Of a DNA stretch of 64,000 nucleotides, positions 12,238 to 30,552 are shown piece after piece. Origin of the DNA: Marinicella meishanensis. GTDB lineage: Bacteria; Pseudomonadota; Gammaproteobacteria; Xanthomonadales; Marinicellaceae. The translations under genes and the position numbers were made by a program. Each line of letters begins with the position of its first letter. Position 1 is the first letter of the stretch. The stretch spans positions 248,001 through 312,000 of the forward strand of contig NZ_JAIOUV010000002.1 in NCBI RefSeq assembly GCF_019931145.1, written 5' to 3'. Under the pieces are notes generated by a model. The model was given only the letters and a program-made list of their open reading frames with translations, searched no databases and was not told the DNA's origin.

Positions 12238-13111
12238 TGATCAATGCCGACCAGATCCAACAAATGGATCGCATCAAACGCCTCAACTTCATCAACGCCA
12301 TCACCGGCATCAAGCCAGCGAATTTAATCGGCTCCAACAGCCCCAAGCACGGCAGCAACCTGGCCATCTTCAGTTCGGTTGTGCATTTGGGCAGCAACCC
12401 GGCGTTGTTGGGTTTCATTACCCGACCCACCGGTGAGGTGCCCAGAAACACCCTGGAAAACATTGAAGCCACAGGGTACTACACCATCAACCACGTGCCC
12501 AACCACAGGGGCTGTTAACACCCACTGAAAGACCACTGTTCAGGCTGCAAAGGTCACAATCAAGGCGCGAAAAGCGTGGTTTGGTCATTCCAATCGAGCG
12601 ATGAGCAACGCAGGGTGTGGCCTTTGCTGTCTGAACCCATGGGGCTGGGTCGTATTTTTCATCCCTCAGCGTTATTCACTCGTTCATGTGGAGTGACCAC
12701 ACCTCACGACTGATGCCTTGATGGCTGAAAAATACGATCCAGCAGTCGCCTTTCAGTGGGTGTTAACAGGCCCTAGCAGCCCAAGCCCACCAAACCTCGG
12801 CCAAATACCCCAAAGGTCAATCGGAGTTTGCTTTGTGTGGTTTCACCGAATCCTATTTGGCTGATTTTCCAGCCCCTTTTGTGGCCGAAGCTGGCATCAA
12901 AATCGGCCTCAAATTGGCCCAGCAAATTCCCATTGAATTGAATCAAACCCGCTTGGTCATCGGTGCGGTTGAATTGATAGAACTGGACGAACGGTGGCTC
13001 AGCCCCGAGGGATACATCGACCTGCAAGCCGCGCAAACCGCAGGCATCAGTGGCCTGAACAGCTATTACCGCTTGATCAAGCAAGAAGCGCACCCATACG
13101 CCCGCCCATGA
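12234..13111 (+). pseudogene. Flavin reductase family protein, split by a palindromic element
   Basis: Two fragments of one flavin reductase-like (FMN-binding split-barrel) gene. The left part, 12234-12506, encodes MLINADQIQQMDRIKRLNFI and then ITGIKPANLIGS and GSNPALLGFITRP, ending in GYYTINHVPN. The right part, about 12775-13111, continues in another frame with AAQAHQTSAKYPKG, SEFALCGFTESYL and the C-terminal AGISGLNSYYRL. Members of this family join these segments directly (TINHV...AHQTSAKYP). Between them lies a 268-bp repeat element with terminal inverted repeats, which adds a stop shortly after the left fragment. The gene is almost certainly non-functional. Confidence 0.85.
12507..12774. 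mobile_element. MITE-like palindromic element, full two-module copy
   Basis: A 268-bp element with no coding capacity. Its terminal inverted repeats run from AGGGGCTGTTAACACCCACT at the left to the complement of AGGGCCTGTTAACACCCACT at the right, with one mismatch, and both continue with GAAAG. Inside are two large imperfect palindromes. Module A (12539-12635) has 20-bp arms starting TTCAGGCTGCAAAGG. Module B (12645-12742) has 20-bp arms starting CTGGGTCGTATTTTTCA and a central GTGGAGTGACCACAC hairpin. Related copies lie at 24809-24961 and 30391-30552. It interrupts a flavin reductase gene. No convincing target-site duplication was seen. Confidence 0.85.
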
Positions 13112-24808: not shown

Positions 24809-24961
24809 AGGGCCTGTTAACACCCACTGAATGGCGGCGGCTGGATCGTATTTTTCAGCCATCAAGGCATCTGTCGTGACCTGTGGTCACTCCACATGAA
24901 CAACTGAATAACGCCGAGGGATGGAAAACACGACCCAGCCCAGTGGGTGTTAACTGGCCCA
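24809..24961. mobile_element. MITE-like palindromic element, single-module copy
   Basis: A 153-bp copy with terminal repeats AGGGCCTGTTAACACCCACT at the left and the complementary AGTGGGTGTTAACTGGCCC at the right. It contains only module B: GGCTGGATCGTATTTTTCAG, a central TGTGGTCACTCCACA-type hairpin and the closing GAAAACACGACCCAGCC arm. It fills the gap between a TonB receptor promoter and the DPP-IV operon's last gene. Confidence 0.85.
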
Positions 24962-30390: not shown

Positions 30391-30552
30391 GAACAGTGGT
30401 CTTTCAGTGGGTGTTAACAGGCCCCGGCCTTAACACCCAATGAAAGGCGACGGCAGGATCGTATTTTTCACCCATCAAGGCATCAGTCGTGAGGTGTGGT
30501 CACTCCACATGAACGAGTGAATAACGCTGAGGGGTGGAAAATACGATCCAGC
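30391..30552. mobile_element. MITE-like palindromic element, rearranged copy
   Basis: Composite relic. Positions 30391-30424 match the reverse complement of the left end of the element at 12507 (GAACAGTGGTCTTTCAGTGG and on through TGTTAACAG). Then, from 30429, a degenerate left end (TTAACACCCAATGAAAGGCG) leads into a complete module B ending GAAAATACGATCCAGC. It lies in the convergent gap between the fructosamine kinase and cupin genes, where its hairpins could act as a bidirectional terminator. Confidence 0.8.

Follow-up and report, generated by a model that had tools for sequence, protein, structure and literature searches.

Three loci in a 64,000-nucleotide stretch of Marinicella meishanensis DNA (the window) are copies of a small, non-coding, MITE-like mobile element that is unusual inside: what is new is a folded core that stays conserved while the ends change. 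The element occurs in many copies, one of which lies in a gene. Its stems carry compensatory changes, the loop bases of the core are conserved, and the core is widely spread among bacteria with varied ends. The features of the window and related elements are collected in Table 1.

Table 1. Features of the three window loci, the tandem dimers of the genome and core-bearing elements elsewhere
Feature	Position	Strand	Basis or remark
Full two-module element, 264 bp between outer GGCC-type ends	12509..12772	+	12507-12774 with AG/CT steps
Left terminal inverted repeat, full element	12507..12538	+	Inverted-repeat search
Right terminal inverted repeat, full element	12743..12774	-	Inverted-repeat search
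Module A core, 79-nt hairpin (CAAGGC..AACGC)	12547..12625	+	Model R2, 71.8 bits
Module B core, the module A hairpin inverted	12655..12734	-	Model R2, 66.9 bits
Module B arms, full element	12644-12668/12719-12743		Inverted-repeat check
Flavin-reductase-like gene, 5' part	12264..12506	+	PF01613, 28.6 bits (cut-off 27); gene start not fixed
Split gene, 3' part (AAQAHQTSAKY.. to stop)	12776..13111	+	Reading frame; first 57 residues without Pfam match
Single-module copy: two terminal repeats flanking module B, without module A	24811..24959	.	Genome match and inverted repeats
20-nt ends, single-module copy	24810-24829/24941-24960
Core, single-module copy	24849..24928	+	Model R2, 66.3 bits
Third locus, read as tandem-dimer remnant: A-side end, dimer junction (30420-30429), module B	30391..30552	.	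Sequence, inverted repeats, dimer comparison
Module B arms, third locus	30453-30477/30528-30552
Core, third locus	30462..30541	+	Model R2, 70.4 bits
Tandem dimers, M. meishanensis genome	C10:262524-263055 and C11:36287-36816
Halomonas megaplasmid, two inverted cores			R2, 61.5 and 47.6 bits
Azotobacter chroococcum plasmid, two inverted cores			R2, 59.7 and 39.9 bits
Pseudomonas aeruginosa plasmid, two inverted cores			54.1 and 38.4 bits
Methylophaga frappieri plasmid			R2, 42.7 bits
Ca. Magnetococcus massalia			R2, 24.0 bits; R3, 35.8 bits

Layout of the element and its copies in the genome

The terminal repeats that the earlier note had described at the three loci were borne out by direct reading and by an inverted-repeat check, in which the 32-nt ends of the full element are 91% complementary. 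With up to two mismatches allowed, the terminal core has seven matches in the window against 0.64 expected, a number reached in none of 100 shuffles, and six of the seven fall inside the three loci. Modules A and B had been regarded as different palindromes. As judged from their sequences, they are instead inverted relatives of one 79-nt hairpin, the same core being found in both by the covariance model R2, whose seed held A and B modules of other copies in this genome. The local alignment of A with inverted B scores 31, and the highest score among 2000 shuffles is 29; because this score is modest and the core model was built with both modules, the homology of A and B rests mainly on shared motifs and spacing. 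The third locus had been taken for a fusion of a module-A-side end with a whole module B. Both parts are indeed present, but the locus reads best as the deletion remnant of a tandem dimer, since its junction, GGCCCCGGCC followed by TTAACACC, is the one found between the units of two such dimers in the genome.

The genome (3.99 Mb) was searched with the shorter, single-module copy and with the longer one as a query of 274 bases, which yielded 35 and 64 match rows, respectively. The longer query produced 22 matches that cover at least 238 of its 274 bases, 21 of them at an identity of at least 84% and one at 74%. The three loci are thus not the sole copies, as had been expected from their density in the window. 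Both ends could be located in 18 copies, and in 16 of these the distance between the outer GGCC ends is exactly 264 bp; the mean pairwise identity among 17 copies is 0.908. The aligned copies have consensus ends AGGGCCTGTTAACACC with YTAG/CTAR-like flanks. Alignment A1 left out a copy with the A interior inverted (L050), one with a deletion (L065), one whose left end was not located (L051), two second units of dimers (L038 and L047) and the copy at 74% identity (L055).

Several irregular copies were observed. In L050 (G000:C15:186498-186769) the inner part of the A hairpin lies inverted within the stem arms; L075 (G000:C9:113457-113547), a truncated copy, has it in the same orientation. Two 26-bp palindromes with 10-bp arms, at G000:C1:78744 (L067) and G000:C8:410150 (L070), consist of two element ends only; they share an identical junction at different sites, and look like ends whose inside has been lost. 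Relatives carry units of 33-73 bp that have GAGACC ends (L268, L289, L293, L257 and L267).

The folded core and its distribution

The first copy has folding z-scores of -9.75 as RNA, -10.94 as DNA and -9.74 as RNA of the other strand. In an alignment of the whole element, which comprises 17 copies from this genome and five from relatives, 92.5% of the cells are paired, whereas structures slid along the alignment reach only 34.2-41.5%. Changes on both sides are found in 36 of 98 pairs (16.3 when shuffled) and in 98 cells (24.2 when shuffled), and the ends of the element covary within single copies.

The core is 78-80 nt long, mostly 79, with near-constant spacing, and is formed by an outer stem, CAAGG facing AAC-C-G, an inner stem, an apical stem and a loop of about five bases. 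Alignment A3 was made from 33 cores, out of 35 that had been extracted at 30 loci; two truncated picks (module B of L048 and of L060) were omitted, and the extraction missed modules that departed from the two motifs at more than one base. It contains 233 compensatory cells against 80.7 in shuffled alignments, and both partners have changed in 25 of its 29 pairs (21.3 when shuffled). The 49 cores of alignment A4 are 89.1% paired, with 456 compensatory cells against 142.9; here, 26 of the 29 pairs change on both sides against 23.8, a value that 26 of 500 shuffles reach, and on the core alignments this count is a weak measure. C15, A16, A17, G18, G19, A62, C63, C65 and G67 are invariant in all 49 A4 cores, an invariance that is partly built in because the cores were picked by motif (at most one mismatch to CAAGGC plus AACGC) or by model. 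Exceptions are one change at G18 in A3 and the variants in L342 and L338. In these two, from Ca. Magnetococcus and Cupriavidus, respectively, CTAGGC and AACGAC replace CAAGGC and AACGC, which is perhaps a second loop-motif variant. As a core carrier, the Cupriavidus stretch was rejected, its R3 score being a weak 20.9 bits.

Folding favours the core strand over its complement in 28 (RNA) and 29 (DNA) of 29 loci from the class, and in 28 (RNA) and 31 (DNA) of 33 seed cores, with the reservation that the class loci were found with a wobble-tolerant model and that loop energies may differ by strand. In the cores, G-T cells outnumber A-C cells by 103 to 17 (181.8 to 125.2 when shuffled), and in the seed alignment by 78 to 22 (122.5 to 69.1), whereas the terminal repeats are nearly symmetric (15 versus 11). 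Module B of the copies in A1, with a structure predicted from the plus strand, shows 65 G-T versus 19 A-C cells on the complement of the core strand, which counts against strand specificity there. The orientation of neighbouring genes shows no bias at the class loci and thus lends no support to a role in the mRNAs of the neighbours. Outside heuristically called reading frames of at least 100 codons lie 21 of 25 class loci, a count that left out four further loci at contig ends.

BLAST detected matches in G016 and G010 among 30 relatives. The whole-element model R1 matched 15 of 33 genomes of the family, including that of M. meishanensis, in three of four genera; the ends of the matched relatives differ, and include GAGACCTTTGC, TTAACCTGGCATCA, TTAAGGAGACCCTGATC, CTAGGGAAGCTCTGATT and others. 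At a limit of E 1e-4 or better per genome, R2 had matches in 130 of the 369 class genomes, again including this one, in 100 of 272 genera, and gave no match in the other 239. Its copy counts are lower bounds, because 12 candidates were scored per genome under stricter filters. For one window protein, the 80 top-ranking named relatives all belong to the Gammaproteobacteria, with 65-71% identity, and the class was taken from this result; in GTDB it includes the former Betaproteobacteria. As a rough control for false matches, 305 kb of named loci were scanned, and the single match up to E 1 was to a gammaproteobacterial MAG (3.4e-11). Two convergent cores are present at 13 of 30 class loci (one from this genome), with a gap of 27-46 nt that is 27-29 nt in ten of the 13, and one of the 30 has two cores on the same strand. 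Among 17 units that were selected by eye because their ends could be recognised, the larger elements are 260-264 bp and the smaller ones about 158-161 bp long. Across lineages the ends differ, but the core, its convergent two-core layout and two size classes (about 262 and 160 bp) are found repeatedly.

An end 21-mer had no match in contigs of other species, a set from which records of this genome were possibly excluded, and an end 15-mer was found in four of 398 genomes of the order, this one and three with one match each. Close variants of the 15-mer also occur at elements from other families. Nothing was found in plasmids when the class elements L306 and L323 were used as queries, nor in phages with a Correia sequence or the Halomonas element as query. 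In contigs of G014, G606, G760 and G473, several matches are located no more than about 150 bases from the contig start, so that the repeats are likely to interrupt draft assemblies and to be undercounted.

Rfam covariance models had no match up to E 1 in the window copy or in five loci (four from relatives and one from this genome), and no published description of the core was found in the titles and abstract openings of the literature. PMC2267715 reports 67 undescribed stem-loop repeat families, to which the core may belong. The short, gonococcal form of the Correia element of Neisseria (L337) matches the core over all 79 positions, with 20.3 bits for R2 and 28.6 bits for R3 (E 3.5e-6 in 3941 bases), and has CAAGGC and AACGC in register; its margin is moderate, other hairpins in the same stretch reaching 16.5 bits. 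The core models did not match the long Correia form (L335), nor did R3 match an Eleftheria terrae stretch that resembles Correia (L372). L337, L338, L342 and L371 were not seeds of R3, whereas L339, L340 and L341 were, and the R3 scores of these three are, therefore, not independent. The comparison suggests that the short Correia form and the core are likely to share descent.

Insertion sites and candidate mobilisers

The first copy interrupts a flavin-reductase-like gene, with a PF01613 match in the left part and none in the right. In four relatives (G003, G009, G012 and G017), BLAST matches of the left flank end where the element begins, and in four (G003, G007, G009 and G017) those of the right flank start beyond it. 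Of six relatives' loci examined by script, the motif was found in two, those of G003 and G017, and in these the gene reads across the site. Both have 18 nt between the same codons, which corresponds to a net insertion of 266 bp; the site is consistent with such an insertion and no target duplication, provided that the ancestor shared these 18 nt. Orthologous sites carrying the same sequence would have spoken for a conserved element, and at the one site compared the readable relatives are empty, in favour of a variable insertion.

Identical flanking 4-mers are found at three of 18 copies of this genome and identical dinucleotides at seven of 18 (5.4 when shuffled), with no clear target duplication. 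By contrast, in a sister subfamily ended by GAGACCTTTGC (GAGACC), perfect 5-bp repeats flank 17 of 32 copies against 1.9 when shuffled, and eight further copies agree in four of the five bases. Target duplications, which had been proposed as a check, are thus seen in the sister subfamily and not clearly in the copies themselves. Identical CTAG or TTAA is present on both sides of 14 of the 17 units chosen by eye (16 elements and one IS). IS5 elements prefer YTAR for insertion. The 5-base duplications of the GAGACC subfamily differ from YTAR 4-mers, and more than one kind of transposase may, therefore, act. The element is short, as is usual for MITEs, and its multiple copies, lack of coding sequence, terminal inverted repeats, insertion into a gene and homologues in relatives, together with the 5-bp duplications of the sister subfamily, agree with the earlier reading as a non-autonomous transposable element.

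The relative G009 has a 1163-bp unit, flanked by TTAA at either end, that contains a transposase gene (PF01609), the product of which scores 318.7 bits with an IS5-family NCBIfam model (cut-off 140). The unit ends TTAAGGAGATCCTGATTTATTATTT are close to the element ends TTAAGGAGACCCTGATCTATTCATTATTT of the same genome. Among 28 PF01609 loci, all scanned for end motifs and 11 for inverted repeats, this is the one whose ends resemble the element of its own genome. PMC4596501 tabulates GAGACCTTTGC as the ends of the IS5-family ISNme1 and of some BrickBuilt copies. PF01609 transposases are present in eight of 12 genomes searched; none was found in M. meishanensis, G014, G016 or G163, where mobility thus lies in the past or depends on another family. 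The search for a transposase with the same ends accordingly led to a near match in a relative, but to no PF01609 gene in this genome, whose own ends GGCCTGTTAACA were matched to no IS. With up to three mismatches, the terminal pattern occurs at 151 places in the genome against 98 for a reversed control. In 20 stretches taken from the listed end matches and read by motif, no second end at IS distance was found; they hold solo ends, small palindromes and partial copies. The interior, with two structured cores in 264 bp, was not seen to derive from a transposase gene, as judged from the cores.

At positions 985-1030 of L344 (G009:C27), an IS-type end abuts the next and shares its TTAA, an arrangement that can be likened to the end-to-end palindromes and dimers of the elements. 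At about position 2349 of L349 (G141:C174), a motif close to a GGAAGCTCTGAT end lies near a PF01609 transposase, a possible second end-matched IS; G141 also carries an element with GGAAGCTCTGAT-type ends (L253).

Proposed explanation and alternatives

We consider it probable that this is a MITE-like element mobilised in trans by IS5-type transposases and carrying a folded core inside. The terminal inverted repeats would most likely be recognised in trans by IS5-family transposases, which would insert the element at YTAR-type sites (CTAG, TTAA); the interior carries one or two folded 79-nt hairpin cores. As the cores of two-module elements are inverted, each strand has one core in the right orientation. 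Through changes in its ends, the element may come to use different IS5-type transposases, and the core may be retained because a folded single strand, either RNA or ssDNA, aids persistence or spread and so serves the element itself. A wider history is put forward tentatively, doubt slightly outweighing belief. The core would be ancient and older than its ends, would have spread across Gammaproteobacteria, Neisseria and possibly other Proteobacteria, and would repeatedly have acquired new IS-type terminal repeats, in the way that SINEs borrow the machinery of LINEs; Correia would be one of its branches, and the strand-specific folded RNA or ssDNA would be recognised by a conserved partner.

MITEs are usually viewed as genome-specific leftovers of one IS, and the terminal repeats, size and copy number found here are usual for them. 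The element could then be a relic of one IS that is functionless inside, with arms kept complementary by template switching at the hairpin; one arm pair has a clustered matched change (L042), and the inverted A-hairpin interiors of L050 and L075 also fit. Template-switch correction would, however, tend to erase mismatched loops, whereas the nine loop or closing bases listed above are constant in the 49 A4 cores, the spacing is near constant and the wobble pairs are strand-biased, which leaves this explanation quite unlikely. Conservation of the inside in 100 of 272 sampled class genera while the ends turn over suggests that selection keeps the inside. Such selection could act for the host, if the core were a mobile structured RNA that served it as a regulator, terminator or mRNA-stability element. 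The RNA-like covariation, the strand bias and the position of most class loci outside called reading frames are in line with this, as is the action of Correia on expression through promoters, IHF and RNase III that is reported in PMC2649163 and PMC10969869. It is nevertheless unlikely, given that neighbouring genes show no orientation bias, that one copy interrupts a gene at a site empty in relatives, and that 239 of the 369 class genomes lack a match at the limit used.

The REP-type system that the earlier note had also entertained, a REP/REPIN-like element moved by a RAYT (Y1) transposase, is highly improbable. REP/REPIN elements are inverted hairpin pairs spread through intergenic regions, and the inverted paired hairpins and imperfect palindromes recall them; the Y1 family PF01797 is found in 12 of 18 genomes of the genus, with three matches in that of M. 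meishanensis. In contrast, no PF01797 match was found in G016 or G010, the carriers of the closest copies, which disfavours this origin, and the end motif is absent from the loci of the three Y1 genes. The element further differs from REP/REPIN in its long terminal inverted repeats, its larger size and the 5-bp duplications of a subfamily.

With IS5-type mobilisation of a folded core as the preferred reading, the element stands close to IS5-family IS and MITEs (BrickBuilt, ISNme1), whose ends are shared or nearly matched in its relatives, and differs from them by its conserved folded interior. ERIC, YPAL, RUP, NEMIS and similar structured repeats are likewise small palindromic mobile repeats that fold when transcribed, a likeness of description. 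The core covariance model allows such elements to be found and compared between distant bacteria, and turns the identity of whatever recognises the CAAGG/AAC-C-G hairpin, in RNA or ssDNA form, into a testable question. It also offers a link between the long-known orphan Correia element and a wider family with IS5-type ends. According to PMC2649163 and PMC10969869, Correia is a small palindromic element never shown to encode a protein, with TA and sometimes CA target sites, main sizes of 153-157 and 104-108 bp, and fragments; inversion is reported in PMC10969869, and the mobilising mechanism is stated to be undetermined in PMC2649163. The terminal repeats of Correia, where its ends were read, differ from those of the present element, and it has one core instead of two inverted ones. 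Versions of 226-550 bp in G014, G004 and G001 (L286-L288, L290, L292 and L294) have extra hairpin-like sequence in the apical part of the core, which perhaps parallels the difference between long and short Correia elements.
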